Shown here piece by piece: positions 6,285 through 61,700 of a stretch of 64,000 nt of DNA. The position numbers and the translations under genes were made by a program. Position 1 is the stretch's first letter, and each line of letters starts with the position of its first letter. Below the pieces are notes generated by a model. That model saw only the letters and a program-made list of their open reading frames with translations, had not been told where the DNA came from and did not search any database. Location of the stretch: positions 124,001 through 188,000 of the forward strand of contig JACGCN010000030.1 in NCBI GenBank assembly GCA_014905825.1. The letters are read 5' to 3'. The DNA comes from Lyophyllum atratum. Lineage: Eukaryota; Basidiomycota; Agaricomycetes; Agaricales; Lyophyllaceae.

Positions 6285-8500
6285 CTAGGAAGCCCGGTCT
6301 TCCTTTTCCTTTTCTTTTTTCTCTGCTCTCCTTCGGAATCCTAAGGCGAAAAATGATCAGGAGAAAGCTGATGGAGTAACTGTCAAGAAAGCGGAGGGCT
6401 TGGCAATACAGACGGCCTTGAGAGGGGAAAGCTATAAAATTTCTTCGACTGCATGATGTCTCTTTCTTTCCTTCTTTCCTTCGTGTAATTACTACGTTCG
6501 CCATTTCTTACTGTACATAGCTTAACAGCCCCAGGATGTCAATCTATTCGCTTCGTCGACTTTATTTGCGGGCCCACTCCACAAAACCGTAGTGTCCGCA
6601 TCGTCGATGAACACAGCAAGTTCAGTCACTAGGTATTAGCGCTAAGCCGGTGTTGCTGGTATACATATACATATTTATCGGTTGACTGGAGGCCCAGAAT
6701 CATTTCCGATGAACTGACGTTGGTGCGCGTCATTAGCATGATTCTCGAACAGATAGATCTATTCCGTTGCAAGAATATAGGTCACTATGAGAGCTTGATC
6801 GTCGCCCTCTCAAGGGCAGTATCCACAGGAGCATGCATACCCACTCCTCAGCCACGCATTTCCGAACAGATCGGAAGCGGATGGTCGGTCTTCAGGATCT
6901 AAGCTCAAACATTCCTGAAGGAACTCGACGACCGCCGGGATGTCCTCCTCAGATACACAGCCGGTTTCCGTTAATTCTGCTTGCAGGCTTGTCTCTGGAA
7001 TAAGATGATCGAAGTATCCTTGATAATGTTAACAGGTAAATTGTGAGGTGAATCATAGAGTGAATGTAGCGTAATGTACCATCAGCATCGAAGAATTCCT
7101 TGACGCGCTTGGATTTCAGGGATATGGCTGGATCAAGAAAATCTTCAGTTATAGCCTGCATGCGTGCCAAGTGTTGGATGTCATCTAGCCCTTCCTCGAA
7201 GAGTGGTCGGCCGGTAAGGAGATAATATGTCTGGTATCTATGAGGAGATGTATTTGGAACTGTGTAGAAGTACTCACAGCGCAGCCTAGCATCCAAGTGT
7301 CGACTTTGATGTCGAAACCTGTGCCGAGGATGACCTCAGGTGGTCGAAGAGAAGGGTCGACCGACGTGTCCCAGGACGCGTCCTTCCCTTTCCCTGTTGC
7401 TCTCGCTAGAACAGCGCTTAACGCGAAGGGGATAAAATTCAAATAAACCCATACTTACCGTGCCCAAGATTGTTCAAATAGATCGAATAATTGGCGATGT
7501 TAAAATTGTCATCGTCCCAATGCCATTGATTTCCGCACGGCTCAGAACGCACGACAGGGTATCTCTTCCCATCGACTGTAACATCTTTCTGGACACCGGA
7601 TGGCAGTGAAGCATCCACGATAGGCTGCACATTGACGGCTCTTTCAGATACCCAGAATAAGAGATTGTCGGCCTTCAAAGCTGTTGCGATGTCAGGCTTT
7701 CTCTCTGCTGAACTACAAGAAAAAAGGAAACGTGCCTCCATGGATGATGTCAAGTTCTTCAAAGTCACAAAGTGCCTCCACAGCAGACGCGATCACCTTT
7801 TTGACGGTATGCACCTTCAATGATCTGGTCGGGGACGTCTGTCGGAATGTATCAAGGTCTACGCCGAGTGGATCCAGTGCGAAGCATTGATGTTCCCCGT
7901 GATGGCTTTGCTCTGTAAAGTGGTCTCGTAGAACTGGCAAGTTATCGGAATCCGCTCCGAGACTGATCGCCTGCAGCGCGCTAAGTTCCTGAGATTTTTC
8001 GGCGGTGGCATGAGTTGTAAGTAATTTCAGAGCCACGAATAGCCCGCTGACGCTCCTAAGAGGAGCAGCACCATAAACAGGATTCACCGAAATGACTGTG
8101 GCAATACTTACTGGAGGTCAGAGGCGAGCCACACGGATGATCGGGGTCCAAACCCAAGTTTTCTGATTATCTTATAGCGGCCTTCTTTGAGAAGCAATCC
8201 TGGATGACCAGCAAAGTATCCAAATCCTTGTTCAGTCGACAAGTCAAGAGGTTCCTCGGGAAATTGAGACATGGGAGTAGAATGCTAGATGTCGTTGTTG
8301 TGGGGAGAATTGTGACTTTTCTGATGTTAGACCAGTTGATATAGAATCCTGGGCGCTTTTTGTGACATGATCGACCTCTAGCCTGTCCCTTGGGACCCAC
8401 AGAAAGGCATAGCCTGCAATTGAGGATAGCAGCATCAAGTGAAGGCGTGCAGCGATGACGCCCGTTCTCCATCAAAAACCGGAACCGAGCGGAATGTTAG
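6285..8500. repeat. Segmental duplication, copy 1 (kinase block A)
   Basis: This block matches 12799-14990 in the same orientation. It covers the 3' flank (from CTAGGAAGCCC), the whole kinase-like gene and its 5' flank. The copies differ by scattered substitutions and small indels, so the event is not very recent. The offset between copies is about 6.5 kb. The part between 6285 and 6809 holds no gene that I can support. Confidence 0.85.
6810..8272 (-). CDS. SRPK-like protein kinase paralog A, probable pseudokinase
   Basis: Starts at ATG 8272 (MSQFPEEPLDL) and stops at 6810. Exon 1 (8272-8112) carries the glycine loop KLGFGPRSSVWLA. After a 56-nt intron, exon 2 (8055-7736) carries the ATP lysine in VALKLL and runs to IIHG. 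The next intron (7735-7681, 55 nt) begins with GC and ends CAACAG, with a CTGAC branch site. It joins IIHG to ALKADNLLFW. Later exons give NNLGHA, RPPEVIL (APE equivalent), DTWMLGCA, TYYLLTGRPLF, and a C-terminal part ending ACSCGYCP. Active relatives read HTDxKxDN and DLGHA; here both the catalytic Asp and the metal Asp are replaced (Ala, Asn). The family assignment is firm. Loss of activity is inferred from the sequence. Confidence 0.82.
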
Positions 8501-9364
8501 TTGTCTTATCTAATCGCTTATCCACTACACCGTCCAGTGTGCGTCTTCAACGTTTCAACTGTAGGGATGTTGACTGCACATAGGCCTCGAATTGCTACTT
8601 TCGCCCTTGCCCCAAGACATCCATTCCGGAGTATTTTTACCTTCCAAGCCCGATGTCGGACCTTATCAAACCAAAGCCCCAGGATGAAAAGCTGAAGGTG
8701 CGTCTTCAAGCCCTTTACGGAATCTAACACTCTACCGACCGCCGCATAAGATCTAGCGGGCACACTTCAAGCTCACTCTTCCTGGTAAGATCTTAAACCA
8801 TTCAATGAATCCGCTTCCAGTGATACCGTGACATCTGTTATAGATAGGCATTAATCGCGAAGAATGCTCCTCCTCTTAAGACACTTCCATGAGTGTTGAT
8901 CTATGTGGGGTATGATGATTGTGACAGATGTATGGCCTGATAGATTGGCGCTGAGCGGCACTGTCGCCACTGGTGGTGGCGATGATCACACAATCACGGT
9001 ACGCCCACGGACACACTCTCACTCCGTTCTTCCGTTCAAATGTTACAGAATACCTCGTTTCGGCTGTAGAATCGGACTACTCGATGGGACCCGGTTTTGG
9101 TCTCGCAAACTGTAAGGCTCGAGATGTATCCCACATGTGTCATCGCTCCGACTCGGAAGATCATCATTATACTTACCCCAAGAGAGCTCATTACGCCTTT
9201 TCATGTGCGACCCAAGGCAGATGTTTACATGGATCAAAATTCAAGTTACGTATGTTAGGTATGTTCGGAACGACAGAATATCCCTCCCTTCGAAATTCAG
9301 CATAACATGATAGCGGCGAGGAATGGACGGACGAGCGATGTTGGAAAGGTGACTAGTGCGGCGG

Positions 9365-9470
9365 ATCCTGGCTTGTCTCCTGGTACATTGACAGTGGTAG
9401 TCGTACATTCAGCACGTCATGCTGGCCGCAAAGACCAATACTCAGCTCACGAATTGAGGTGGGACATTTC
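9365..9470. repeat. Relic of a kinase-gene 5' flank
   Basis: The stretch from CCTGGCTTGT through CAGCACGTCATG to the CGCAAAGACCAA string matches 12035-12115, upstream of kinase C, in the same orientation. No kinase body follows, so it may be what is left of a deleted fourth copy. Confidence 0.6.
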
Positions 9471-9839
9471 TTCCGTTGAACGGCAGGCTTGCGGATATCA
9501 GGATTCTAGTCACACCGTCCGAATTGCTCAGTACTCACATTTGTGAGAACTCGTTAGTCTCTCTCCCTCGTCTCATAGTGGTCAAATTCTTACTTGCGGC
9601 ACATGCCCTACAGAATAGGTAGTTCCAGGAAAATTTGACACCGACGTATGGATCCTACCTGGACCTATGCTACGAACAAGCCCTCCGGATCTGGTATGAG
9701 GCTGGCGCCTAAGTCTCTTGAAGAAATTCATGATTAACTCTTCTCTGTCACGCCTATCCGATCGACACATTGTTCTATCACTGGCTATACTCTCGCACAT
9801 GTGCAAGATCCCCCTCTCCAAGTACTTTCGTTTTCATTG

Positions 9840-9925
9840 GCCGTAATGTAATCGACGCGCCTCGATCGATCGATCGAAACAAAATACGGAAGCTTCGGTG
9901 GCTGACGGCTTCACTAGTGGATGGT
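9840..9925. repeat. Inverted partial copy of the 5' region of the membrane-protein gene
   Basis: The plus strand here reads IDRN...RWLT-SL in one frame. The minus strand at 5710-5620 gives the same peptide fragment (IDRNQNPKFRWLTTSL). The shared DNA includes CGATCGATCGAAAC and TTCGGTGGCTGAC. Nothing of the rest of the gene is present. Confidence 0.55.
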
Positions 9926-10323
9926 TATAAGACTGCGGACACGGCCATCGCAAAAACCCCTAGTAGGTGGGATATTGGAGAATGCTACGGATATATCATG
10001 TCTTCGCTGATGATGATTAGCTTGTAGTCTTGTAGTACTTTTGCGATCTTGAGGCATACCTTCTTCCGGATGTTGAACACACGTCGGAAGACTGGGCAAC
10101 TCAGAACGCGTGCCCATTGTTCGCCTCATGTTATGTGACGGAGCTTTTATATTTGCTGCTCAGCATCGGTAGTGAGAAACCTCTATTCGTATTTGCTACC
10201 ATGGCTTACGCCGCCCAACTCAGTCATCGTTATAACGGCAACGTCGTATGCAGTCGCCATACGCCCGAATGGGCAAATACTATTCCGCCGAATTTACAAA
10301 GTACGATCGAAACTTGACCGTTT

Positions 10324-11793
10324 TCAATGAACTTTGTCCGTGACGGTCCCATAGCCGATAAACCCGCAGGAGCATGCATACCCAATGCGCACCCACGCGT
10401 GTCTCGCCAGATTCGAAGCAGTTGGACGGTCTTTAGGGTCTAAGCTCAAGCATTCTTGAATGAACTCGACGATCTCCGGGATGTCCTCCTCTGATACGCA
10501 TCCGGTGCCTTCTAATTCTGCTTGCAGACTTATATCCGGAATAGGATGCTCGAAGTACCCTTGATAACATTGGGGCATCCATCGTGAGGTGCATCATCAT
10601 ATCAGTAAAAAAGACGTACCATCAGCATCGAAGAACTCATTCAAGCGCTTCGACTTTTTAGCCATGGCTGTGCTGAAGAGATCCCCGGCGATAGCGAGCA
10701 TACGTGCCAAATGTTCGGCGTCACTAAGTCCATCAGGGAAGAGTGGTTTTCCGGTAAGGAGGTGATACGTCTGCTATCGATGAGAAGGTGTGGTCGAGAC
10801 ACAGTAACAGTACTTACAGCGCAGCCTAGCATCCACGTGTCGACCTTCGTGTCATAACCTGTCCCGAGGATAACCTCAGGTGGTCGGAGACAAGGGTCAA
10901 GGGATGTGTCCCAGGCCGCTTTCTTTGATACCATTCTTGCTACAGTTGCGTTTAACGACAAAAATGGGAAGGCAAAAAAATAGATGTACCATGCCCAACA
11001 TTATTCAAGTAGATCCCGTAATTGGCGATGGCTTCAAACTCATCGTCCCATTGATGTTTATGAGCGAGTGGCTCAGAAAGAACGAGTGGGTATCTCGTCC
11101 CATTCACTATAACTTCTTCCTGGATAACAGACGGCGGTGACGCATCCAGGATAGGCTGTATGTCGACGGCTTGTTCTACTGCCGAGAACAAGAAATTGTC
11201 CACACGGACAGCTGTTGTAAACGTCAGATCTTCCGAGACGTGACCTATAGGAAAGAATAAACGCGCCTCCATGGATAACCCCACATCTTTTGAGGTCACA
11301 AAGTGCCTCCAGAATACGTGCGACCACTTTTTGGACGGTATGCACTCCCAATGATCTGGTAGGGGCAGTCTGTCGGAATTTGTCGAGATCAGGGCCAAGT
11401 GAATTCAATGCGAAGCACTGATGTTTCCCATGATGGCTCTGCTCTGTGAAGTGGTCCTGTAGAACGGGCAACCTGTAGTATGGACGAATCAATTGCAGTA
11501 CGTGAAGTTCCTGAGATTTCTTGGAGGTGGCATGAGTTGTCAGTATTTTCAGAGCCACGACATGCCCCTTCTCATCCCTAAGAGGAACAACTCTTTCAAT
11601 AAGATCCACTTGAATGACTTTGCGATGCTTACTGTAGGTCAGAGGCGAGCCACACGGATGAGCGGGGTCCAAACCCAAGTTTTCTGATTAGTTTATAGCG
11701 GCCTTGTTTGAGAAGCAATCCGGGGTATCCAGCGAAGTATCCGAATCCTTGTTGAGTCGACAAGTCGAGAGGTTCTTCGGGGAATGGAGACAT
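10324..11793 (-). CDS. SRPK-like protein kinase paralog C, probable pseudokinase (most diverged)
   Basis: Starts at ATG 11793 (MSPFPEEPLDL) and stops at 10324. The exon plan is the same as in copies A and B. The glycine loop KLGFGPRSSVWLA is kept and the ATP lysine sits in VALKIL. The catalytic-loop intron is again 55 nt with GC..AG ends (11266-11212) and a CTGAC branch site. It yields VIHGAVRVDNFLF, so both the catalytic Asp and the following Lys are changed. The metal-binding motif reads NNVGH. RPPEVIL, DTWMLGCA and TYHLLTGKPLF are kept. The C-terminus runs longer than in A and B, ending FIGYGTVTDKVH. All reading frames stay open, which argues for selection on a non-catalytic role. Upstream it shares about 300 bp of flank with A and B. 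Confidence 0.8.
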
Positions 11794-13313
11794 GGGAGTA
11801 GAACGCTAGATGTTGGTGGGGGGAAAAATGCGACCTTCCTGACCTTGGACGGTGACAGACGGTAGGCCGGCTGATATAGAATTCTGGGCGCTTTTTGTGA
11901 CGGGTTCGATGATCGACTCAGGCTGGAACCTGTCCCTGGAAACCCACAGAGAAGCATAGCCAGCCATCGATGATTGCGGGATCGAGCGGAAGTGTGGAGC
12001 CAGTCGGCAGTCGCGTCTTTCATCGAAACATGTCCTGGCTTGTTTCCTGCCGCACTGACAGTGGTATTCATACATTCAGCACGTCATGTCGGCCCCGCAA
12101 AGACCAAGATTGAGGTGTAACTTCACTCGTGGGGCCGAAGCAGAAAACATGCAAATCAACCGCCCTAATCCCTATCCGAAGGATACACGAAAGTTCAGCG
12201 AGCCTTGAGGTCGAAGTCTTCAGTGTCAAGTCACCACATAGACCGTATCGACCACGACATCATCTAGGAGCGCAAACCGCTCGCTTCTGGATCATTCGAA
12301 AACTGCTAGACACATCAATTAACGTAGGACGTGTCGAGTGGCAGGCCTGCTGATATTTACTGTAGCGCTTGAAGCCCTTGATTGACGATCTGCGAAATGG
12401 ATTCGGAAGGACCATATACTGCAGAATAGTATCAGGAGCGAGGGGTCCAGCGCCATCTTCGACACGTTGAATAATGAGTGGGACCAACGAGCCATGCATG
12501 CGAAGAAAAAACAGATAGGGTTGCAGGACACGGGGCATCGGCTCGATGTCGTTGTGGAAGACACTCAACAAGTTCAAGTTAGCCGCGCTCAGTGCCGAAC
12601 AGCACAGCCATAACCCGTCGGCCCAACAAAAAGCAAAAACCCGACGAGCCTTCGGTGGCAACTCTCCTAAACATGATATACCAACAGCCGAAGCATCAAA
12701 CAGACAATCCCCTCGCCTTTTACTAGGGGATTCCGTGATGCTTCGGCATCCAAATGTTGCGATACAATCTTTGGCAATGCTTCACTCCTTGTGAGTCTAG
12801 GAAGCCCAGTCTTCCTTTTCTTTTTTCTCTGCTCTCCTTCGGAAGCCTAAGGCGAAAAATGACCAGGAGAAAGCTGATCGAGCAGCTATCAAGAAAGCGG
12901 AAGATTTGGCAATACAGGCGGCTTTGAGAGGGGGAAAGTTATGAAAGTTCTTCGACTGCATGATGTCTCTTTTCTTTCCTTCTTTCCTTCTTTCCTTCGC
13001 GTGATTACTTAGTTACTGTACTTAGCATAACGGCCCTAGGATGTCGACTTATTCGCTTCGTCAACTTCATTTGCGGGCTCACGCCTCAAAACCATAGTGT
13101 CCGCATCGTTGATGAACGTAACAAAGACAGTCACTATGTATCAGCGCTAGGGCATCGGTATTACTGGTATACATATTTACCAGTTGACTGGCGGCCCTCG
13201 ATCATGTCCGATGAACTGACGTTGGTGCGCGTCATTAGCATAATTACCTGAACAGATAGATCTATTCGCGTTGCAAGAATACAGGTCATGGCGGACGCAC
13301 GATCATCTCCCTC
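11794..13313. other. Intergenic between kinase paralogs C and B
   Basis: Positions 11794-12115 are 5' flank shared by the kinase copies. An open frame of 133 codons runs 12661-12260 on the minus strand; it has no recognised domain, and I do not count it as a gene. From 12799 the second copy of the segmental duplication begins. Confidence 0.45.
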
Positions 13314-14990
13314 TCAAGGGCAGTATCCACAGGAGCAGGCAAATCCACCCCTCACCCATGGACTTCCAATCAGTTCGGAAGCGGACAATCGGTCTTCAGG
13401 ATCTAAGCTCAGACATTCCTTAAGGAACTCGACGACCGCCGGGATGTCCTCCTCAGATACACAGCCGGTTTCCGTTAATTCTGTTTGCAGGCTTGTCTCC
13501 GGAATAAGATGATCGAAGTATCCTTGATAATTTTAACAGGTTAATCGTGCGGCGAATCATAGAGTGAATGTAGCATAATGTACCATCAGCATCGAAGAAT
13601 TCCTTGACGCGCTTGGATTTCAGGGATATGGCTGGATCAAGGAAATCTTCAGTTATAGCCTGCATGCGTGCCAAGTGTTGGATGTCATCTAGCCCTTCTT
13701 CGAAGAGTGGTCGGCCGGTAAGGAGATAATACGTCTGGTATCTATGAGGAGATGTATTTGGAACTGCGTGGAAGTACCCACAGCGCAGCCTAGCATCCAA
13801 GTGTCGATTTTGATGTCGAAACCTGTGCCGAGGATAACCTCAGGTGGTCGGAGAGAAGGGTCGACCGACGTGTCCCAGGACGCATCCTTCCCTCTCCCTG
13901 TTGCTCTCGCTAGGACATCGTTTAACGCGAAGGGGATAAAATTGAAGATAAACCCATGCTTACCGTGCCCAAGATTGTTCAGATATATCGCATAATTGGC
14001 GATGTTAAAATTGTCATCATCCCAACGCCATTGATTTCCACACGGCTCGGAGCGCACGACAGGGTATCTCTTCCCATCGACTGTAACTTCTTTATGGACA
14101 TCGGATGGCAGCGAATCATCCGCGATAGGCTGCACATTGACGGCTCTTTGAGATACCCAGAATAAGAGATTGTCTGCCTTCAAAGCTGTTGCGATGTCAG
14201 GCTTTCTCTCTACTGAACCACAGGAGAAAAGGAATCGTGCCTCCATGGATGATGTCAAGTGCTTCGAGGTCGATAAGTGCCTCCACAGCACACGCGATCA
14301 CCTTTTTGACGGTATGGACCTTCAATGATCTGGTCGGGGACGTCTGTCGGAATGTATCAAGGTCTACGCCGAGTGCATCCAGTGCGAAGCATTGATGTTC
14401 CCCGTGGTGGCTTTGCTCTGTGAAGTGGTCTCGAAGAATCGACAAGCCATCCCAAGGTCCGAGTCGGCTGATCGCCTGCAGCGCGCTAAGTTCCTGAGAT
14501 TTCTCCGCGGTGGCATGAGTTGTAAGTAATTTCAGAGCCACGAATAGCCCGCTGACGCTCCTAAGAGGAGCGGCACCATAAGCAGGATTCACCGAAATGA
14601 CTGTGGCAATACTTACTGGAGATCAGAGGCGAGCCACACGGATGATCGGGGTCCAAACCCAAGTTTTCTGATTATCTTATAGCGGCCTTCTTTGAGAAGC
14701 AATCCTGGATATCCAGCAAAGTATCCGAATCCTTGTTCCATCGACAAGTCAAGAGGTTCTTCGGGAAATTGAGCCATGATGCTAGATATTGTGGGGAAAG
14801 GTGCGAGCTGATATAGAATCCCGGGCGCTTTTAGTGACGGGCATGATGATGGAGCTGTAACCTTTCCCTTGGGACCCACAGAGAAGCATAGCCTGCAATT
14901 GATGATAGTGGCATCAGGTAAAGGCGTGCACCGATGGCGCCCATCCTTCACTGATAACCGTAACCGAGCGGAATGTTGATTACCTTATCA
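12799..14990. repeat. Segmental duplication, copy 2 (kinase block B)
   Basis: Direct copy of 6285-8500 covering gene and flanks. The protein differs from copy A at scattered positions, and the intron positions are the same. Confidence 0.85.
13314..14777 (-). CDS. SRPK-like protein kinase paralog B, probable pseudokinase
   Basis: Starts at ATG 14777 (MAQFPEEPLDL) and stops at 13314. It keeps the glycine loop, VALKLL lysine, NLGHA, RPPEVIL and DTWMLGCA motifs and ends with ACSCGYCP. The catalytic-loop intron spans 14240-14186, 55 nt, beginning GCACGA and ending CAACAG. An alternative GT donor present in copy A at the same place is mutated to GA here, so only the GC donor is shared by all three copies. 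The spliced loop reads IIHGALKADN, lacking the catalytic Asp. No frameshift or stop was found in the other exons. Function is unknown; a scaffold or decoy role is possible. Confidence 0.82.
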
Positions 14991-31693: not shown

Positions 31694-33337
31694 TTATTCC
31701 GACATGTCTACTAAGTGCTCCAGCCCACAATCCCTCCACAGACTCGTGTGAGTGAAGTGAGGTATGCCCACTCGCTGCCCACCATCCCAGGGCTCGATTT
31801 GGTGCTGAAGCACTCTGCCTCTAATGAGGACAAAATCACCAGGGTGGAGGCGCACCCGGAGATTCAGCTGAGGGAGATGAACATAGCCACCAGTGAACGA
31901 ACCAGCGGCCAACAGCCCAGCGTAGGCTCCAAGAGGATCTTGGGAGTCGGTGTGCAGACCCGACTTCCTATTGAAGAGCAGCTCCCGACCTTCGAACAGC
32001 AGGGGGTCCACCGCGTTGAAAGCCTTCATAACAGGATGCTTGGTTTCTTGAGCTTCTCGGAGGCGCACGAGGTTGGCATGGAAGTCAGGATCAGCCCTAT
32101 AAATGGCCTCATTCACACGTTGGGACACAGGAGTCAACTCTTGATATAGTTGCATCGTGGAGGACAAGATAGTTCCCGTGGACATGCTGTCCTTGGAGGG
32201 CATCAGCATGCCTTTGTTCTGTGGTGAAATGAGTACTGTTCTTATTAGAAGGACACATGGATAACTCACCTCTTGGCCGAGTGCATACCATCCTCTTGCA
32301 AGCCTTATTTCCCCTGCCGTTTCTCCTTTCCGACAGACATACTTACCCACCTTGTCTGCGCTGGTTGCAGATTTGCCTATGTGAGGAACATTGACCTTTG
32401 CATAAGCCATCAGCTTGGTGTTCAAGCGCTCCTGCATGAACCTCATAGTAAATTATCTAGGCCAGGAATAAGATCATGAGGACTTACCACCATGCTGGAT
32501 TGTAGCAGCCCTGGTATGTAGGCCACCAGGGTATGACCATCACTACTGATGGCCTTTCGGGAGATGTCGTCCTCCCAAGTGTCGGGCTTGGTAGGCGGAA
32601 TTGCAGGCTCTTGCGATTGACGCAGACCTCGCACAGCACGCTTGAAATCAAATTTCATCTTTACTACATTGATAGTCAGGTATGATAATAAATCTTACGC
32701 AGAAAGAACTCACCCGTATTTTCTGCTAGTTTAGCAGTTATTTTGCGGACGTGCCTAAGATTATCCTTTTTTCGGATGGGAATGCGGTGGGTAACTTCTG
32801 GACCATTCCTATCAGCCCTCACAGGTGGATAAGGCATTTCGACATATTGAGAGCTATAAATGTACTCACAGAGGTCTAGCGTTCTTGCCAACAGGGTCGG
32901 CTCTAACGCTCTTTTTTTGGGGAGAAGCCTGTAAAAAAAAGAAGGCGGTTAGTACTATATCCTGCCAAAAAACAAAAAACGAAAATGAGAGAAAATAAAG
33001 GACAGCAGGTGGGGAGGTGCGATGTGGGGAAGAGGGAGAGATAGTAATAGATATAGAGGATGTTGAAAAGACCACAGGTTGGTGTAACACTTCCCTGTGG
33101 TCACCCTTTTCGTTGAGTGGTCCGGTGCAACACTTTACGCACTCAAAGGGCTGGGAGGGGAGTGGAGAGGAGGGGAGGAGGGAGAAATAGTAATAGAGAT
33201 AGAGGATGTTGAGAAGACCACAAGTCGGTGTAACACTTTCCTGTGGTCACCCTTTTGGTTGAGTGGTCCGGTGCAACACTTTATGCACTCAAAGGGTTGG
33301 GAAGGGATAATCAGCAGAGAATACACACCTTGGCCAT
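31694..33337 (-). CDS. TET/JBP-family 2OG-Fe(II) dioxygenase (nucleic-acid base oxidase)
   Basis: Relatives oxidise 5-methylcytosine or thymine in DNA; in mushrooms they are expanded and often travel with transposons. Exon 1 is 33337-33329 (MAK), followed by a 400-nt intron. Exons 32928-32870 and 32817-32714, an exon with KMKFDFKRAVRGLRQSQEP, one starting ERLNTKLMAYAKVN, and a last exon from NKGMLMPSKDS to the stop at 31694 follow. The catalytic core is complete: metal ligands His and Asp in GLHTDSQD, the distal His in RVLQHQIEPW, and the 2-oxoglutarate Arg in GGQRVGIPHF. No frameshift is needed apart from choosing acceptors; one 33-nt intron-like stretch near 32340 is undecided. It lies between a FAS2 relic and the large inverted repeat. 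Probably functional. Confidence 0.85.
33005..33300. repeat. Tandem duplication (about 146-bp period) inside intron 1 of the TET/JBP gene
   Basis: Two copies of a unit holding ATAGTAATAGA.ATAGAGGATG, GTGTAACACTT..CTGTGGTCACCC and TGAGTGGTCCGGTGCAACAC. Each includes an inverted pair (CCACAG...CTGTGG). The duplication explains why this intron is about 400 nt rather than 55. Confidence 0.8.
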
Positions 33338-33812: not shown

Positions 33813-36800
33813 TTCACCGCTTCACACCCTTCACATTCAGACACAGCTCCTCCTCCAGCACCCGCGCGAGCTTCTGCAGCCCCACTTCCATGGGTAGCAC
33901 GTCCGTCTCCTCTTCGCTCGGAGCGGGCTGGACGTCGGCGGGGCGGTCGATGATGGAGATGTGGGGTTCTAACCCAGCTTCGATTTCTTCAGTCCCACTC
34001 GAATTGAACGCCTTGGCAAACCATGGTCGTAAAGCCTGTCTTGGATGGAGAGCCTTGGTACAGGCTAAGGTTCAAGAAGCGGACCGCTTCGTCTTTACCC
34101 AGCAGCCGAACAACACGTTCTGTGACAACATTCAGCACTACATCGAATTTCAGCAAACCTCGGAGTGACCGAAAAGGCATGGATGGACGTACCTTACGGA
34201 TACAAAACGAACGACCCGGTCTCGTCCCGTTGCTCCACCGTCCAGGCATATGGCCGCCCGGTCCAGGCATCTCCAGCTCTTCCTATGTCCAAGGCGGTAT
34301 TCCAAAAGCGTATACCCAAGATTTCCGACACCGGAGAAGACGACCGTGCACGCCAGGAGGATCTCGAAGGAATGGAGGTAGAAGCGGTCGAGCTGGGGTG
34401 CGAGCCTGAGGAGGAGGTAGTTAAGGATGGAGCCGACCGTTGCAGCAGCGATACCGTCTACGATGAGGTCGAGTTAGCTTGGAAAAAAGGTCAGAGTCTA
34501 GGTGGGATGTACAATATGAGAACATGTCTGGGAGGGATAAAAATGTATACGTTAGCTTTCTAGTTAGGAAAAGCAGAAAGAGGGAGACCCGTACCGGACA
34601 TCATGCCAATCTTATAGTGAACAGGGGCTCTTGACCACACAAATCCGCGCAGCTGAGGACTGATAGGACCATGCTTCCACCACTTGACCAGCGGGTTAGA
34701 TATAATCTCATTACACCCTACACCCCCACACACACATCAGCAACTGCCCACCCTCCACCAAAGTAAAAAAAAAACTCAAACTCACCATACGCACACTTCT
34801 GCCACCTCGCCAACTCATCCACCACCGTCAACGACACCCCCTCCTTAACCCCCCCCCCCCCCACCCACCCCCCGTCCGATTACGTCGCCCACCTCAGCGT
34901 ATACCCCTTCAACAGCAACCTCACCTCGCTCCACTGCTTCCTCTTCCCGTCCGCGGGGTCCACGAACGCGGCGTCTTGGACAGCGGACCAGCGCAGGAAG
35001 GCGTTCTGCCCGACGAACAGCGTGACCTCGCCATTGGCGCACCCGAGGGAGATGCACCAGTTGATGCGCCGGGTGAAGTGCGTGATGCCATTCTCGAAGT
35101 AGTGGTACGCCACCTGCATCACGTCCGACTCGTGCTGGATGATCGCTACGTCCGGGGACTCCCACATTTCGCGCGCCGCATCATGGAAGCAGTCCTACAC
35201 ACGAAAACCAAGCATCAGTTTGGGGTATGGGTAACTACTACTACTTGGCATGGAGGGGGAACGAACCTCGGGGACGATGGTATCGGAATCGATGATGAGG
35301 ATGATCTCGCCCACGCGCATAGACTTCCCATTCATGCACAGGGCTTCCACATCCTCCTTGTCTCCTCGAAGATCTCCTCCGCAGCCATACGCCTCGCCTT
35401 GTCCTCGAGACAATCGCCCGGGTCCTCCTCTGCGCCCTCTGCGATGAGCTGCGCGAGGAACTTCTCAAGCTTCGGGGAGATAGCTGCATACACGTCAGCC
35501 CTCGTACCCCGGGGAGAACTTCGTAGGAAGCAGACGTACCCAGACCGTAGTTCATACTAAACCCCCAAAAAAATCAACATCGAGAACCTCACACCACCAC
35601 CAAACCAAAACACTCACTTGCTCGCCTTCTTAAACTTCCCCGCCCTCTTGAACCCCCATTCCTTACTCTCATGCCCCGGCCTCGCCACCCACCCAATATT
35701 ATGATTCGCATAAAACCGTAGTTCATACTAAACCCCCAAAAAAATCAACATCGAGAACCTCACACCACCACCAAACCAAAACACTCACTTGCTCGCCTTC
35801 TTAAACTTCCCCGCCCTCTTGAACCCCCATTCCTTACTCTCATGCCCCGGCCTCGCCACCCACCCAATATTATGATTCGCATAAAACACGATCCTCTGCT
35901 CCCTATCCTCCTCCGAGATCAGCTGCAGCCCGTCGTCGCAAACAAAAATGGCCGACATCCCGCCTTGCCGGGCGTATATTTACATGGCTTTTTTGATGGA
36001 GAAGACGGAGGGCCGCTGGGTTTGTTTGTTGGTGTTAGTTGGGAATGGAAGAAAGCAAGGGAGGAGAGGGGGAGAGGGAAGGGGGGGGAACGTACATGAC
36101 GAGCTCAAGGGACTCCTTGTACACGGGGAGCTGGATGGTGATGTGCGGGAGGTTACTGTTGACCTCTGCATTGGGCTCGGGCTTGATGGCGGAGTAGTAC
36201 TGTGAGTTCTCGTGGTACTGTGCCACGGGGCCGAGGCTATACCCAACGAACACAAGCGTAAGAATGGTGTGACGGAACAAGATTGAGGGGAGGGGGGGGG
36301 GGGGAGGTAGACGTACATGAGAGAGAGGTTACCGACGAGTTGGAGGCAGAAGAACTACATGGGCAGGGGGAGGTATGTTTAGCGGGGAAAGCCAGGGTGG
36401 GTAGGAAGGCCAAACGACGTACGAGGGACACGCAAAAAATGATAGGAAGCGTAACGAGCAGCGCGAACCTCCGTGGGTCCCATCCAGCGCGTACTCCTCC
36501 AGCAGCACCGTAACACCGCCCGACATGAAGTCTACACACCATCAGTTTTGCTGCATCCAAGTAAAGGGAACCACCTACAAGTCGAGAGCCCCGCACCGCA
36601 GCCCGCATACAGGGGCCCAAGCAGAATAAGCTTCCTCTCCTTCCTCTTCCCCCTCCCCTTCTCCGGATCCGCGTTCCCACTCGGCGCGGGTGCATCCGCG
36701 CGGGGCTGCAGGCGCCAGCTCCACCACCCGCGTTTCACTGCAGGCTTCTTCTCTGCCATGGGGGCGGGGGCAGCCTCCTTTCCGTTGAGGTCGGCGGTGG

Positions 36801-37614
36801 ACTCGGCGGGTGTGGCAGAGGCGGAGAGGGGGGTAGGAGCAATGGACTTGCGGGCGACCTTGCGGGTGTGCCAGATGTGCTTGATGAGCTTTTCGTCAAA
36901 GTCTTTGCATAGGGGGATCATGGTCTCCAGAGCGTAGCTCCATAGGATGAGAGCACCTTGGTCGCGCTAAAAAAAAGGGGGGGGACTTATATTATGAGAG
37001 GGTGGGAGGGGGGGAGGTACGAACGATGAATGTGCCACATTGGTCCTTTTCGGCTTGGGGGAGGTAGTCGATGCTTTCGAGGATCTGGATGCGCGTGCCT
37101 TGGTCGATGTAGATTGAGTTGTCGCGGGGCTCGCTGGAGTAGCAATGCGTCAGGTGACATCATGCATCAACAGATGGGTGGGAGACTCAGACTGAGGGCA
37201 GCGACGACGGCTGAGCTGCGCAGTTTTACGGCAACGACGGGGTTGAGGCCACGTACGGCGGCTTCGAAGGGGATGAGGGCGGGGTTCTCGTAGGGGAAGA
37301 CCAGCTTACTTCGTGACCACACAGAAATTCACCGTGTTCCGATGCATGTAGCCTTTGTAATACTGCTCAGCATCTGCAAGTGCTTGAGATACAGACGTTC
37401 ATGGGGCAGCTCTATAAACAAAGTTCTGTCGTTCCTTGAGGCTCAAAGATGGGAGAGCAGGATGGATGGGGGACACACCTTTGCGCTTTTTCTTCGCGCC
37501 GGCGCCGTCAGCTGGCAAGGGCATCGGGCCAACATCGTCGTCGTCGTCCTCTACGGGAGCCTCTGGTCGGATATCTTCGGTCTGCGCCATCTCCGTGGGC
37601 TCTTCTCACCGTTA
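33813..37614. repeat. Large inverted repeat, left arm (3.8 kb)
   Basis: The reverse complement matches 46448-51068 almost base for base. The arms differ by an 814-bp insertion in the right arm and by the length of homopolymer G runs. Identity stops inward at 37614 (after TCTCACCGTTA) and outward at 33813. About 105 bp further out (33693-33708) a 16-bp match to the right flank resumes, so one side may carry a small deletion. Confidence 0.95.
34260..37590 (-). pseudogene. Family-2 glycosyltransferase (membrane polysaccharide-synthase-like), broken, left copy
   Basis: The intact family is a multi-pass membrane GT2. Reading minus: N-terminal MAQTEDIRPEAPVEDDDDD, then KDFDEKLIKHIW, LPHITIQLPVYKESLELV, IFVCDDGLQLISEED, ILIIDSDTIVPEDC (metal-binding DxD), YHYFENGITHFTRRINWC, VGQNAFLRW, then WSEVRLLLKGYTLRWAT, and further on RFYLHSFEILLACTVVF and GNLGYTLLEYRLG. 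Defects: a frame change near GAAGTAAGCTG after the sequence for NFCVVTK; a tandem 171-bp duplication of one exon with its intron (35545-35886); apparent loss of the SEDFDMAL-type segment after WSE; an in-frame TAA followed by a poly-G run near 34850; and loss of the last membrane part. The same defects stand in the right copy, so the gene was dead before it was duplicated. Confidence 0.8.
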
Positions 37615-37990
37615 TGGTGCGAGAGGAGCTTGAGAAGCGAAACTGGCATGCAAAGCGATTAGCGAAAGCTCGCCAAGGAGTCTGAGTGGCAACCACTGCC
37701 ACTGGTGATTAGAGTCTATTAGAGTGGAAAGTTGGTAAATAATAATAACAGAAATAAACAACTGCTCAAAGGAGGACTCGTCGCCGCAGCTTCTTCAAGT
37801 GAAGTACACACTGACAGACATAATGCGCATTCAATGATACACATCACTGGCTCCCACCATGCGAGTCGACATAGATGACCATTGACAAGCAAAAGGTCCG
37901 CCATCGTGTTTATTAATAGGAAGTTGATCACTCGCGACGACATTGACAGAAATTATAATGCAGAATGGTGTAACGCAAAGTCGATCATTA
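37615..37990. other. Spacer between left arm and next gene
   Basis: No gene seen. This begins the 8.8-kb unique region between the inverted arms. Confidence 0.45.
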
Positions 37991-46031: not shown

Positions 46032-46447
46032 CCTTACTAGCACGTGCCTAGAAGGGCGTAAGTGTCTCATTTACCTAGTATTGATATCCTGCAGCTCATA
46101 TGCCGATTTGTTTAGGTGCTGAGTGAGGAAGAAAGGCGATTTTAGCAGCTGAGGAGAAGGAGGCGGCCGAGAAGAAGGGAGATTGCATTGTGATGTAATC
46201 CCCTTGGATTTATCTTACTTGACCTATCATTTGGACCCAATTTATACGCGATACCCTGTCGTTCTACCTGGACATGAATTCTAAGTAAATGATCTTGAGA
46301 CTGCTCTGAGTGAGTCAGTGAACTTGGCTCGGGTAGACTCCATCCGGCGGACTCCGATCCATCTCAACGCTCACGCCAACTTCCATCTTTGACGCATCCT
46401 CCATGTCTGACACGGAACAGGACGTGTCTGTCCTAGGCACACAAGGC
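46032..46447. other. Spacer between the unknown gene and right arm
   Basis: No gene seen. The right arm begins at 46448. Confidence 0.45.
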
Positions 46448-46473
46448 CGTAACGGTGAGAAGAGCCCACGGAG

Positions 46474-49400
46474 ATGGCGCAGACCGAAGATATCCGACCA
46501 GAGGCTCCCGTAGAGGACGACGACGACGATGTTGGCCCGATGCCCTTGCCAGCTGACGGCGCCGGCGCGAAGAAAAAGCGCAAAGGTGTGTCCCCCATCC
46601 ATCCTGCTCTCCCATCTTTGAGCCTCAAGGAACGACAGAACTTTGTTTATAGAGCTGCCCCATGAACGTCTGTATCTCAAGCACTTGCAGATGCTGAGCA
46701 GTATTACAAAGGCTACATGCATCGGAACACGGTGAATTTCTGTGTGGTCACGAAGTAAGCTGGTCTTCCCCTACGAGAACCCCGCCCTCATCCCCTTCGA
46801 AGCCGCCGTACGTGGCCTCAACCCCGTCGTTGCCGTAAAACTGCGCAGCTCAGCCGTCGTCGCTGCCCTCAGTCTGAGTCTCCCACCCATCTGTTGATGC
46901 ATGATGTCACCTGACGCATTGCTACTCCAGCGAGCCCCGCGACAACTCAATCTACATCGACCAAGGCACGCGCATCCAGATCCTCGAAAGCATCGACTAC
47001 CTCCCCCAAGCCGAAAAGGACCAATGTGGCACATTCATCGTTCGTACCTCCCCCCCTCCCACCCTCTCATAATATAAGTCCCCCCCCTTTTTTTTAGCGC
47101 GACCAAGGTGCTCTCATCCTATGGAGCTACGCTCTGGAGACCATGATCCCCCTATGCAAAGACTTTGACGAAAAGCTCATCAAGCACATCTGGCACACCC
47201 GCAAGGTCGCCCGCAAGTCCATTGCTCCTACCCCCCTCTCCGCCTCTGCCACACCCGCCGAGTCCACCGCCGACCTCAACGGAAAGGAGGCTGCCCCCGC
47301 CCCCATGGCAGAGAAGAAGCCTGCAGTGAAACGCGGGTGGTGGAGCTGGCGCCTGCAGCCCCGCGCGGATGCACCCGCGCCGAGTGGGAACGCGGATCCG
47401 GAGAAGGGGAGGGGGAAGAGGAAGGAGAGGAAGCTTATTCTGCTTGGGCCCCTGTATGCGGGCTGCGGTGCGGGGCTCTCGACTTGTAGGTGGTTCCCTT
47501 TACTTGGATGCAGCAAAACTGATGGTGTGTAGACTTCATGTCGGGCGGTGTTACGGTGCTGCTGGAGGAGTACGCGCTGGATGGGACCCACGGAGGTTCG
47601 CGCTGCTCGTTACGCTTCCTATCATTTTTTGCGTGTCCCTCGTACGTCGTTTGGCCTTCCTACCCACCCTGGCTTTCCCCGCTAAACATACCTCCCCCTG
47701 CCCATGTAGTTCTTCTGCCTCCAACTCGTCGGTAACCTCTCTCTCATGTACGTCTACCTCCCCCCCCCCCCTCCCCTCAATCTTGTTCCGTCACACCATT
47801 CTTACGCTTGTGTTCGTTGGGTATAGCCTCGGCCCCGTGGCACAGTACCACGAGAACTCACAGTACTACTCCGCCATCAAGCCCGAGCCCAATGCAGAGG
47901 TCAACAGTAACCTCCCGCACATCACCATCCAGCTCCCCGTGTACAAGGAGTCCCTTGAGCTCGTCATGTACGTTCCCCCCCCTTCCCTCTCCCCCTCTCC
48001 TCCCTTGCTTTCTTCCATTCCCAACTAACACCAACAAACAAACCCAGCGGCCCTCCGTCTTCTCCATCAAAAAAGCCATGTAAATATACGCCCGGCAAGG
48101 CGGGATGTCGGCCATTTTTGTTTGCGACGACGGGCTGCAGCTGATCTCGGAGGAGGATAGGGAGCAGAGGATCGTGTTTTATGCGAATCATAATATTGGG
48201 TGGGTGGCGAGGCCGGGGCATGAGAGTAAGGAATGGGGGTTCAAGAGGGCGGGGAAGTTTAAGAAGGCGAGCAAGTGAGTGTTTTGGTTTGGTGGTGGTG
48301 TGAGGTTCTCGATGTTGATTTTTTTGGGGGTTTAGTATGAACTACGGTTTTATGCGAATCATAATATTGGGTGGGTGGCGAGGCCGGGGCATGAGAGTAA
48401 GGAATGGGGGTTCAAGAGGGCGGGGAAGTTTAAGAAGGCGAGCAAGTGAGTGTTTTGGTTTGGTGGTGGTGTGAGGTTCTCGATGTTGATTTTTTTGGGG
48501 GTTTAGTATGAACTACGGTCTGGGTACGTCTGCTTCCTACGAAGTTCTCCCCGGGGTACGAGGGCTGACGTGTATGCAGCTATCTCCCCGAAGCTTGAGA
48601 AGTTCCTCGCGCAGCTCATCGCAGAGGGCGCAGAGGAGGACCCGGGCGATTGTCTCGAGGACAAGGCGAGGCGTATGGCTGCGGAGGAGATCTTCGAGGA
48701 GACAAGGAGGATGTGGAAGCCCTGTGCATGAATGGGAAGTCTATGCGCGTGGGCGAGATCATCCTCATCATCGATTCCGATACCATCGTCCCCGAGGTTC
48801 GTTCCCCCTCCATGCCAAGTAGTAGTAGTTACCCATACCCCAAACTGATGCTTGGTTTTCGTGTGTAGGACTGCTTCCATGATGCGGCGCGCGAAATGTG
48901 GGAGTCCCCGGACGTAGCGATCATCCAGCACGAGTCGGACGTGATGCAGGTGGCGTACCACTACTTCGAGAATGGCATCACGCACTTCACCCGGCGCATC
49001 AACTGGTGCATCTCCCTCGGGTGCGCCAATGGCGAGGTCACGCTGTTCGTCGGGCAGAACGCCTTCCTGCGCTGGTCCGCTGTCCAAGACGCCGCGTTCG
49101 TGGACCCCGCGGACGGGAAGAGGAAGCAGTGGAGCGAGGTGAGGTTGCTGTTGAAGGGGTATACGCTGAGGTGGGCGACGTAATCGGACGGGGGGTGGGT
49201 GGGGGGGGGGGGGGGTTAAGGAGGGGGTGTCGTTGACGGTGGTGGATGAGTTGGCGAGGTGGCAGAAGTGTGCGTATGGTGAGTTTGAGTTTTTTTTTTA
49301 CTTTGGTGGAGGGTGGGCAGTTGCTGATGTGTGTGTGGGGGTGTAGGGTGTAATGAGATTATATCTAACCCGCTGGTCAAGTGGTGGAAGCATGGTCCTA

Positions 49401-49815
49401 TCAGTCCTCAGCTGCGCGGATTTGTGTGGTCAAGAGCCCCTGTTCACTATAAGATTGGCATGATGTCCGGTACGGGTCTCCCTCTTTCTGCTTTTCCTAA
49501 CTAGAAAGCTAACGTATACATTTTTATCCCTCCCAGACATGTTCTCATATTGTACATCCCACCTAGACTCTGACCTTTTTTCCAAGCTAACTCGACCTCA
49601 TCGTAGACGGTATCGCTGCTGCAACGGTCGGCTCCATCCTTAACTACCTCCTCCTCAGGCTCGCACCCCAGCTCGACCGCTTCTACCTCCATTCCTTCGA
49701 GATCCTCCTGGCGTGCACGGTCGTCTTCTCCGGTGTCGGAAATCTTGGGTATACGCTTTTGGAATACCGCCTTGGACATAGGAAGAGCTGGAGATGCCTG
49801 GACCGGGCGGCCATA
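46474..49815 (+). pseudogene. Family-2 glycosyltransferase, broken, right copy
   Basis: Same gene and same lesions as the left copy, in plus orientation: the frame change after the NFCVVTK sequence near 46755, a 171-bp tandem exon duplication (about 48176-48517), the shortened stretch after WSE, the TAA near 49183 followed by poly-G, and a missing C-terminal membrane part. The GT2 landmarks LPVYKESLELV, DSDTIVPEDC and QNAFLRW are present. Poly-G length changes shift some frames relative to the left copy. Confidence 0.8.
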
Positions 49816-50089
49816 TGCCTGGACGGTGGAGCAACGGGACGAGACCGGGTCGTTCGTTTTGTATCCGTAAGGTACGTCCATCCATGCCTTTTCGGTCACT
49901 CCGAGGTTTGCTGAAATTCGATGTAGTGCTGAATGTTGTCACAGAACGTGTTGTTCGGCTGCTGGGTAAAGACGAAGCGGTCCGCTTCTTGAACCTTAGC
50001 CTGTACCAAGGCTCTCCATCCAAGACAGGCTTTACGACCATGGTTTGCCAAGGCGTTCAATTCGAGTGGGACTGAAGAAATCGAAGCTG

Positions 50090-58709: not shown

Positions 58710-61700
58710 ATGGACCTCGACCCCAACAACCCAACCACGGCATACAACCAGACCTGCATCTGCAACAGAACGTTCAGCTCTCCAGCTGCCTTTAAGAACC
58801 ACGAGAACACCTGTTCCGCCAAGAAGCAGAACCTTTCAGAGGTTCTGGCAAATGTCAAGAAACGGCGTGCACAGAAGATATTAGCATCAACTGCCACTGG
58901 GCATAGTGTGCAAGCCACAGAACCCCACACTGGAGAGGAGTCTGGACTGGCGGGACCTATCGACGAAGGCAATACGGTCAGAAAGACACCATCTTTGAAT
59001 ATGCCCCATGTGCTGATGATTGCATAGCAGGGTCCTACTAGGGGTCAACAACTGAATGAAACAACACCATCAAACGACGATCACAGCTCCCAGGCAGATC
59101 CCCCTCCCGCGAAGCGACGCCGAATGCTTCCGGTTCACCTGCGTAGTTCTTCGTTCATCATGCATGATAAAACATTACGGGATGTTCTACCCCAACCCCT
59201 CGCTCCAGTGTCTGGAGCAGCCGCTGGGTCCATTCCTACCCCTGTCTCGGGCAGAGTTTTGCCGGCGACATACGAGTCCTTAGGCTCCATAACACCAAGT
59301 ACTAGAGAGGCTGCCCCCATTGATACAGGAAAAAACGAGTTTGGCATGTTCAGGCGATATCACCATAGGTCGCTACCTTCTCATGACCCTGAGGCGCAGG
59401 CAAATATCACTACCCTTTCTAATATCCAACCTGCTATGGTGTCCGCTAAAAGGCTTCCCGCCTATGGACCCTATCCTAACGAGAATGCTTTCAAACTGGG
59501 AGACTGGTTCTGGAACGATGGAGCACAAAAGTCACAGGAAAGCTTCCGAAGGCTCGTAGAAATTGTCGGGAGCGAGACTTTTGTGCCAGCAGAGGTAAGG
59601 AACATAAATTGGAGGCATGTCAATGCGCAGCTCGGTCTCAATGATTGGGACCAAGAGGAATGGGAAGATGAAGATGCTGGGTGGCATGAATCATCCGTCA
59701 AGATTCGGGTTCCATTTCACCGTCATATAAAGCTTCATGGAGTCCGTGACTTTATAGTCAAGGCCTTTTACCGCCGGTCCTTGGTCTCCGTTATACGGGA
59801 AAAGCTCACGCTCAAGAAACCCGATCTTCCTCATTTCCACACTGAACCCTATGAATTGCTGTGGCAACCTAATGCGGAAGACGATCCAGTCCGTCTTCAC
59901 GGAGACCTCTACACGTCACCAGCTTTTTTAAAAGCCCATCAAGAGTTACAGAACTCCCCCACAGAACCGGGATGCAATCTACCTCGTGTTGTTGTCGCTC
60001 TAATGTTCTGGTCCGATGGTACCCATCTCACCGACTTTGGCAATGCAAACCTTACTCCAGTCTACATGTATTTCGGCAACGAGTCTAAATACCGACGCTG
60101 CAAGCCGACCTGCAACTTAGCTGAGCATGTTGCTTATCTTCAGGAGGTACGCCATCACTCTGCAGTTTAATCATGATATACGGTCAACTGATAGATGCAT
60201 GGTTATAGCTGCCGGACGAATTCAAGGATTTTGTTAGCCACTACACTGGCAAAAAGAAGATCGATCCAGACCTTATGACGCACTGTAGGCGTGAGCTTTT
60301 TCATGCTCAGTGGCGACTGCTGTTGGACGACGAATTTGTCCATGCCTATCAACATGGACTAGTAATTCAATGGGAAGACGGGACAGCTAGGAGGTTCTAC
60401 CCCCGTATCTTGACCTATTCAGCAGACTACAAAGAAAAGTAGGCCCCACTCCAAGTCTTTGCCATGGCCGCAGCAGTGACTAATTGCCCATCGTACTCAT
60501 TTCCTTTTCTACCAAGGGCTGTGGTTGCTACCATCCGGCAAAACGGCGCATTTCCTTGCCCCCGATGCAAGATGCCGTTATCAGATATGCATCTTTTCGG
60601 AACAAAGAAAGACAGGCAAACCAGGATCAAACTTGAGCGATCTGATGACCATAAGTATCGGCGAGCCCTATCAAATGCTCAAGAAGCTATCTATCAGAAA
60701 AACTTTGCTGTTAACAGTGCCTATGTTGAGCGGCAGCTCAAACCAGAATCGCTAGTGCCAACTCTGGTAAGCCCTCTCGAGTCGTCTCTCATGACCAGTG
60801 CATGCTTACAAACCATGGAAACTTGAAAAAGAATGCGTTCGCTGACCGTTTAGGCCCAGAACTGCTCGGTCTGAACTGGTTCAACATGTTTGTGGTGGAC
60901 CTCTTGCATGAAGTTGAACTTGGGATCTGGAAAGCTCTCTTTATTCATCTCCTTCGCATCTTGGATTCTCTGGACCAAACATTACTGCATGAGCTGGATC
61001 GCAGGTAATTCCTTTCAAACAAGTTATAAAATAACATATACTGATATTTGAATGTTCGCAAAGATTCCGTTTGGTTCCGACGTTCGGTCGGGATACCATC
61101 AGGCGATTCTCTAGAAACTCTTCGGAAATGAAGAAAATGGCTGCCAGAGACTTTGAGGATTTGCTCCAGGTCGGTTATCCTCAGGTTCTTCTGTTTTCGG
61201 AGTCATTGACTATCTCATGAACATCATAACAAGTGTTCAATTCCAGTGTTCGAAGGGCTTATTCCAGAACCACATAACTCGCCTATCCTTGATCTCCTCT
61301 TTCATTTCGCTCATTGGCATGGCTTGGCTAAACTGCGGGTGCACAGTGATCTGACCTTGGAAATCCTGGACAAGGAAACGACGTTTCTCGGGGATAGCCT
61401 CCGAGGCTTTCAGACCAACGTATGCGGATCGTTCCAGACTCACGAATTGGCGCGGGAGGCAGAGGCCCGAAGACGGGCTGAAGAAAATAGAAACAAAACC
61501 AAGGCCGTGACTGTAACTGCGAACTTAGCAAATGCTAAAAAACAGGGCAAAAATAAAAAACCTAGGCCCAGCACTTCTACCGCCACCGGTGCAGAAAGCG
61601 GTCCAGGGTCTTCCCAAGCGGACATTGTGGCAGACGGGACCTCCAAGGGAAAGGCGCCAGACACGGGCATGCGCAGTGGTCGAAAGCCAGTCGCATTCAA

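Follow-up and report, generated by a model that had tools for sequence, protein, structure and literature searches.

How a protein kinase can lose its catalytic residues and still be maintained as a gene is the question raised by three kinase-like genes of the mushroom Lyophyllum atratum, which lie in the order A, C, B on the reverse strand of a 64,000-nucleotide stretch (the window) covering positions 124,001 to 188,000 of contig JACGCN010000030.1 (C76) in assembly GCA_014905825.1 (64.8 Mb, 151 contigs). A sequence-only reading had taken all three for pseudokinases that lack both catalytic aspartates and are retained for a non-catalytic role. The explanation that we favor and consider probable is that they belong to an SRPK-derived pseudokinase family of gilled mushrooms, in which catalysis would have been lost once and the protein would serve as a non-catalytic binding module, held at membranes by S-acylation of its tail.

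The spliced models bear out the open frames, glycine loop, ATP-binding lysine and APE-like motif that had been claimed for the three copies (Table 1). Each gene is intact and has six exons, with introns of 47-61 nucleotides that add up to 272 nucleotides in A. The proteins predicted for B and C agree with their NCBI models letter for letter, and NCBI model P0001 (393 residues) is 98% identical to our model of A, with intron 1 placed differently. The aspartate of the HRD motif is replaced by alanine and that of the DFG motif by asparagine in A, B and C alike, in the same altered loops (HGALKADN or HGAVRVDN, and NLGH or NVGH) that had been read from the DNA. By contrast with these losses, the β3 lysine, the αC glutamate, the catalytic-loop histidine and asparagine and a PPE motif are retained, the glycine loop is present in an atypical form (GFGPRSS), and all three proteins match Pfam PF00069. 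Protein identity is 91% between A and B and 69% between A and C. Earlier 392-residue models of A and B, differing by four residues after NLGH, were used for the trees and alignments below, and that of A was the query in homology searches of the genome, protein records and PDB sequences.

Table 1. Coordinates of the three pseudokinase genes and their motifs (window positions; all features on the reverse strand).
Feature	Position	Strand	Remark
Gene A	6810..8272	-	396 aa, spliced model
Gene A, six exons	8272-8112, 8055-7736, 7680-7459, 7405-7278, 7230-7080, 7018-6810	-	
Gene B	13314..14777	-	396 aa, identical to NCBI P0003
Gene B, six exons	14777-14617, 14560-14241, 14185-13964, 13909-13782, 13734-13584, 13522-13314	-	
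Gene C	10324..11793	-	400 aa, identical to NCBI P0005
Gene C, six exons	11793-11633, 11577-11267, 11211-10990, 10939-10818, 10770-10620, 10559-10324	-	
Intron 2 of A	7681..7735	-	GC-AG, phase 1, splits former catalytic-Asp codon (G|CT = Ala)
Intron 2 of B	14186..14240	-	GC-AG, phase 1, same codon as A (G|CT = Ala)
Intron 2 of C	11212..11266	-	GC-AG, phase 1, same codon as A (G|CT = Ala)
Catalytic-loop equivalent of A	7664..7742	-	HGALKADN, split by intron 2; sequence
Catalytic-loop equivalent of B	14169..14247	-	HGALKADN, split by intron 2; sequence
Catalytic-loop equivalent of C	11195..11273	-	HGAVRVDN, split by intron 2; sequence
DFG equivalent of A	7460..7471	-	NLGH; sequence
DFG equivalent of B	13965..13976	-	NLGH; sequence
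DFG equivalent of C	10991..11002	-	NVGH; sequence
Cysteine tail of A	6816..6833	-	CSCGYC, then Pro and stop; sequence
Cysteine tail of B	13320..13337	-	CSCGYC, then Pro and stop; sequence
Tail of C	10327..10374	-	CSCGF plus 11-residue extension, third Cys lost; sequence

The codon of the lost HRD aspartate is itself interrupted by intron 2, whose positions proved exactly as proposed in all three genes and which has GC-AG borders in each. The same GC donor occurs in all eight pseudokinase copies of the genome, comprising A, B, C, their counterparts A', B' and C' on contig C46 and a dispersed pair D/D', and both aspartates are lost in 8 of the 8. Of the 14 paralog loci modeled, seven that keep the HRD aspartate were tested for the intron: six of these models (L034, L035, L037, L038, L044 and L046, with L034/L035 and L037/L038 each apparently two alleles of one locus) carry a GT-AG intron in the same phase of the HRD-Asp codon, and L039 does not. 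An intron common to aspartate-bearing paralogs gives independent support to the splice that we modeled in A, B and C. That a GC-AG intron at the lost-aspartate codon has been retained across all eight duplicates, as against GT-AG in the six paralog models, is an observation in its own right.

The sequence-only reading had named a different splice that restores an aspartate as an outcome that would tell against it. We enumerated in-frame, stop-free candidates for intron 2 with ends no more than 45 nucleotides from the modeled ones (23 for A, 34 for B and 33 for C, the modeled splice counted), and none of them restored HxDxxxxN. A 67-nucleotide intron candidate in B yields HGDN, with the wrong spacing between Asp and Asn, and a 37-nucleotide candidate in C yields HGDLTFTTAVRVDN, an HGD with Asn six residues late, while unspliced read-through of intron 2 runs into stops. 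The NCBI models P0002 and P0004 from contig C46, which read a portion of intron 2 as protein, contain no HxDxxxxN either; a GC donor may mislead gene annotation. Rescue of the catalytic loop by alternative splicing was rejected, given that every splice enumerated lacks the motif.

With A as the query, phmmer placed SRPK1, SRPK2 and Sky1 in rows 1-13, and a Foldseek search of the PDB with the model of B returned the same three kinases at ranks 1-24. The AlphaFold2 models reached predicted local distance difference test (pLDDT) scores of 90.7 for B and 92.1 for C with a predicted template modeling score of 0.91; confidence is high across the kinase domain, the tail being poorly ordered. By sequence and by model, A, B and C are predicted to be of SRPK-like kinase fold, closest to SRPK/Sky1. 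SRPK, Sky1 and Dsk1, of the CMGC group, are thus the nearest known system by sequence and fold, and the Asp-codon intron is common to the SRPK-like paralogs of this genome; A, B and C differ from them in lacking the catalytic aspartate pair and apparently the docking-groove acids and in having a cysteine tail and a GPRSS loop added. The fungal kinase-like family FunK1 was also considered as an assignment and rejected, as no FunK1 match was found in Pfam at E ≤1, where the only matches were PF00069, PF07714 and a sub-cut-off PRA-CH match for A.

Relatives were gathered by three protein searches, two of which gave the best 120 of 146 and the best 120 of 148 matches; about 8000 candidates were scored in each of these two, and the family size is a lower bound. 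In a first tree of 85 rows, motif and tail columns were removed and 17 of 102 rows were excluded as short, intron-bearing or ill-fitting; in a second tree of 137 rows the glycine-loop columns were removed as well, and 23 of 160 rows were excluded on the same grounds. Several of the rows left out bear the same motifs, and several are unreadable at one motif. All 49 sequences lacking both aspartates in the first tree fell, together with P0021, into one clade of 50 with support 99/98, in which the HRD aspartate is lost in 49/50 and the DFG aspartate in 50/50, and whose sister group consists of five kinases keeping both. The second tree again gave one clade, now of 101 members including A, B and C, with both aspartates lost in 100 of the 101 (support 100/95, which is approximate because it was taken after rerooting). 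Outside it the HRD aspartate is kept in 36/36 rows and the DFG aspartate in 35/36, and the sister group is formed by six kinases with both. In this larger clade the HRD position is occupied by Ala (61 members), Gly (33), Ser (4), Gln (1) or Arg (1), and the DFG-Asp position by Asn (66), Gly (30), Ser (3) or Glu (2). The sole member with an HRD aspartate, P0021 from Coprinellus aureogranulatus, reads HGDVRPEH; its loop Asn has become His, and Gly stands at the DFG-Asp position.

The simplest reading of this tree is that both aspartates were lost once, before the family spread. Of the earlier claim that the pair had gone in three diverged copies, the loss therefore stands, in the eight genomic copies as in the clade, whereas separate losses do not, given that the copies sit in one clade best explained by a single event; under one loss, A, B and C are not independent evidence. 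The search for orthologs sharing the altered loop, which had been suggested as a check, found it in many mushroom species. By record names, the members come from Lyophyllum, Asterophora, Galerina, Psilocybe, Flammula, Hebeloma, Gymnopilus, Cyclocybe, Agrocybe, Pholiota, Ephemerocybe, Coprinellus, Coprinopsis, Cyathus, Laccaria, Phlegmacium, Crepidotus and Crassisporium, and the clade also includes unnamed environmental records. All named member genera except Mariannaea presumably belong to the Agaricales. The Mariannaea record (P0172, Mariannaea sp. PMI_226), from what we take to be an ascomycete, has motifs and a tail matching the Hebeloma and Laccaria pseudokinases and may represent contamination or horizontal transfer. 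The member from Coprinopsis cinerea (P0152/P0076) has a long branch; it reads HGS in the loop and CDC in the tail, and its DFG aspartate is changed to Glu. Ephemerocybe angulata accounts for 24 records among the matches listed (in the range P0019-P0158), which may stem from more than one assembly. In almost all of these records, which form a further decayed, expanded branch, the β3 Lys has become Gln and the αC Glu has become Leu. Many clade records are labeled 'non-specific serine/threonine protein kinase', a name that their motifs suggest is wrong as to activity.

The clade is also set apart by features that are absent or rare outside it. A PRSS glycine loop occurs in 88/101 members versus 0/36 rows outside, a histidine directly after NxG in 91/101 versus 5/36, and 87/101 members versus 0/36 rows have CxC among their final 30 residues; A, B and C have all three marks, C without the third tail cysteine. 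In the smaller set, P43 (47/50) and R44 (43/50) of the glycine loop are conserved and are variable in active rows, the His after NxG is found in 46/50 and the Glu of APE in 50/50, while E102, S104, H136 and a Met-Leu after the αF Trp are far more conserved in the clade than in active rows. These marks bear on the main rival explanation, namely that the proteins sense nucleotide, binding ATP without metal like STRAD-alpha and thereby switching partner binding, with the loop arginine and the histidine in place of the cation. In STRAD-alpha, Arg215 and His200 substitute for the cation (PMC4718504; here and below, cited papers are drawn on for the portions of their text that were available). Such a mechanism would fit the conserved loop and histidine. 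It would also fit the β3 Lys and loop Asn: all three genes retain both, and across the clade the Lys is found in 73/101 members and the Asn in 88/101. However, the β3 Lys is also lost in 28/101 members, and PRSS is still present in 26 of those 28 as compared with 62 of the 73 with Lys. Since the loop is retained equally without the lysine, it is probably not there for ATP. Moreover, VRK3, which reads HGN for HRD and GFG for DFG, is an inactive protein that fails to bind ATP (PMC2639636), although its glycine loop is degraded. We therefore regard metal-free nucleotide switching as possible but doubtful.

The tails of the clade mostly read CSCG[YFW] or CACGW, and cysteines average 2.4 in the last 15 residues against 0.2 per 15 residues elsewhere. 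As the exact C-terminal residue is cysteine in only 13/101 members, the tail is not a standard prenylation box. Yck1 and Yck2 are active CK1-group casein kinases of yeast. Their C-terminal Cys-Cys is palmitoylated by Akr1, a modification that anchors Yck2 at the plasma membrane (PMC2846877), and the active sister kinases P0017, P0053 and P0181 likewise end in -CC. This parallel is what suggests a membrane tail, even though CSCG[YFW] predominates among the pseudokinase tails and their likeness to an acylation site is one of sequence. Alternatively, the cysteines could form a metal-binding or redox knuckle and the protein could be soluble, without a lipid anchor: the pattern CxCG[YFW]C is reminiscent of a metal knuckle, and the final residue is not Cys in 88/101 members. 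The tail is modeled with low confidence in both AlphaFold2 predictions (last block pLDDT 60 and 41), which together with the Yck2-like -CC ends of the active sisters makes such a knuckle a tentative alternative that we think unlikely.

If the proteins were decaying relics on their way to loss, their coding sequences should be drifting. The ratio of nonsynonymous to synonymous substitution rates (dN/dS), obtained by NG86-type counting at a transition/transversion ratio (kappa) of 1, is 0.31 for A/B (95% interval 0.20-0.48), 0.38 for A/C (0.30-0.49) and 0.37 for B/C (0.28-0.48), rising to 0.38, 0.49 and 0.47, respectively, at kappa 2.5. The comparison between copies that had been proposed as a check thus gave values clearly below 1, and the coding sequences of A, B and C are under purifying selection, as the sequence-only reading had supposed for the retained pseudokinases. 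Ratios involving D are similar (C/D 0.41 and A/D 0.37; 0.50 and 0.47 at kappa 2.5), as are those of the allele pairs of A (0.31; 0.37), B (0.42; 0.51) and D (0.47; 0.57), the A' and B' models having another intron-3 acceptor and 392 codons being compared in those two pairs. Only the pair C/C' is compatible with 1 (0.62, interval 0.36-1.25; 0.75 at kappa 2.5). YN00, run on the earlier gene models, gave higher values throughout, namely 0.35 for A/B, 0.51 for A/C and 0.48 for B/C, and 0.41, 0.57, 0.90 and 0.66 for the allele pairs of A, B, C and D. The values for C/C' and D/D' by both methods are what a history of decay could appeal to. However, all eight frames are intact with usable splice sites, the same motifs persist in many mushroom genera, and drift would usually leave stops: when the A lineage was simulated with substitutions only, 4.5% of 4000 runs were stop-free since the A/B split and 0/4000 since the A/C split. 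Combined with the low A/B and A/C ratios, these results leave decay highly improbable. Allele pairs of active paralogs gave NG86 ratios of 0.76, 0.47 and 1.15 (the last with a dS of 0.009), with doubtful model ends; because this control is weak, we do not claim that constraint is stronger or weaker than in active kinases.

Environmental records bear on expression. Of 11 selected full-length environmental frames, six lie on contigs whose spare sequence is below the intron total of A (P0012, 7 nucleotides; P0165, 91; P0169, 148; P0010, 181; P0168, 193; P0007, 259), and all six show HGA, HCA or HRA in the loop and Asn in place of the DFG aspartate. Too little sequence is left in them for such introns, and they therefore look like spliced transcripts, with the reservation that the type of source is unstated and that relatives may have fewer introns. 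The five others (P0016, P0058, P0163, P0179 and P0182) exceed 272 nucleotides of spare sequence.

A conserved protein without the aspartate pair might still transfer phosphate or another group through other residues, as CASK, POMK or SelO do (PMC10211241; PMC2639636). Candidates for such residues are the clade-specific conserved polar positions E102, S104, H136 and H234 and the C-lobe D349, which is present in 80% of the clade versus 41% of active rows. By contrast, both aspartates are missing in 100/101 members and the β3 lysine in 28/101 besides, and D349 is the only clade-specific Asp among the columns listed. Hidden catalysis is thus very unlikely.

The favored explanation, a non-catalytic SRPK-derived family with a membrane tail, would run as follows. 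In an ancestral SRPK-like kinase, HRD would have changed once to HGA or HGG and DFG to NxG or GxG, the kinase fold being retained while the GxGPRSS loop, the His after NxG and the Cys-rich C-terminal tail were gained. Later duplication would have produced the tandem A/C/B cluster and the dispersed D on both haplotypes. The protein would act as a scaffold or allosteric partner in kinase signaling, and its S-acylated tail would tether it at the membrane. Allosteric partnership, switching and scaffolding are known roles of pseudokinases (PMC10211241), and VRK3 likewise keeps the structural His and Asn and the Lys-Glu pair while the functional aspartates are lost (PMC2639636); this retention of structural residues without the Asp pair, seen in the light of the known roles, points to non-catalytic binding. 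VRK3 differs in its CK1-group origin and its degraded glycine loop. To our knowledge, it has no CSCG tail. STRAD-alpha and JAK JH2 are similar in combining an altered HRD or DFG with a well-formed fold and an allosteric role (PMC4718504; PMC2639636; PMC10211241), but they are not close relatives of the mushroom proteins.

Several observations weigh against this explanation, in addition to the C/C' ratio and the higher YN00 values. P0002 and P0004, two of seven models annotated by NCBI in this genome, do without the GC-AG intron, CxC is missing from 14/101 tails, and, as noted, just 13/101 end exactly in cysteine. D548, D564 and E571 of SRPK1 are residues that we take to form the acidic docking groove for arginine-serine substrates. 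These acids seem not to be kept, the equivalent of E571 being Ala in 32/50 and Glu in 4/50 clade members, and SR-protein binding, and with it a role as SR-protein decoy by way of this groove, is accordingly doubtful judging from the alignment, although Glu is found in just 10/34 active rows too. Finally, the genome yielded no closely related active sister kinase: the best non-pseudokinase match of P0053 in a search ignoring introns is only 34% identical, and a pairing of pseudokinase and active sister is therefore unsupported. A search of the genome for members of the second pseudokinase subclade gave 7 matches at E ≤1e-10, none above 33% identity.

A broader reading is that a single ancient loss of activity in an SRPK-like kinase gave rise to a mushroom-specific system of membrane-tethered pseudokinases. 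These would have multiplied in tandem and diverged between haplotypes, and would act as non-catalytic switches or guards, for example when self is told from non-self or a parasite is recognized; their partners would bind at a new face made up of the GPRSS loop and the N-lobe turn at E102/S104. What the data show of this is limited to inactivation as read from sequence, membership in one clade, duplication of the genes and residues specific to the clade, and as a whole we hold the reading to be improbable. Filamentous ascomycetes have expanded potential SRPK pseudokinases that are not understood (PMC3591445), and in Fusarium an SRPK-like expansion is described of whose function little is known (PMC6001611). 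The clade described here is almost wholly of mushrooms by record names, with one ascomycete record (P0172), and is likened to those proteins by description only. Among the matches listed in the open-license literature searched, no Agaricales SRPK pseudokinase family was described in titles and abstract openings, and the available portions of PMC8778642 and PMC10197012 mention MLKL in other contexts only. Pseudokinases as a class are long established, and the mushroom clade is an apparently undescribed family within it. Although pseudokinases are common, a large family still expanding after what was probably one catalytic loss, with about 100 sequences and with sister kinases keeping both aspartates, offers a good natural experiment on how a kinase fold is used when its chemistry is gone. 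With a member in Coprinopsis cinerea, a laboratory mushroom, the role of fungal SRPK-like pseudokinases (PMC3591445) becomes directly testable.

As to the surroundings of the cluster, A and B lie within a duplicated segment with a spacing of about 6.5 kb, and the duplication reaches beyond both genes. For the nine open reading frames neighboring the kinase cluster, no matches suggesting a function were found. On contig C46, A', C' and B' follow one another as their counterparts do in the window, with similar spacing, and many kinase matches in the assembly occur as contig pairs, as judged by eye; for these reasons C46 appears to be the other haplotype. B and D lie about 88 kb apart on C76 (window 14777 to C76:226513) and 39 kb apart on C46 (751200 to 789835), which makes the C76 haplotype longer by about 49 kb between the two genes. 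This stretch of C76 contains an inverted repeat, a sub-cut-off Tet_JBP match (31697-32452) and a Plavaka transposase match (59028-60167), which together with the extra length suggest a large mobile insertion between B and D. The inverted repeat is perfect over 3.6 kb (window 33975-37617 and 46447-50089), with arms about 8.8 kb apart. A 1 kb probe of the repeat arm had no match on C46 among the matches listed, though C46 bears the allelic kinase cluster, and it recurs as an inverted pair with 100% identity on contig C35.

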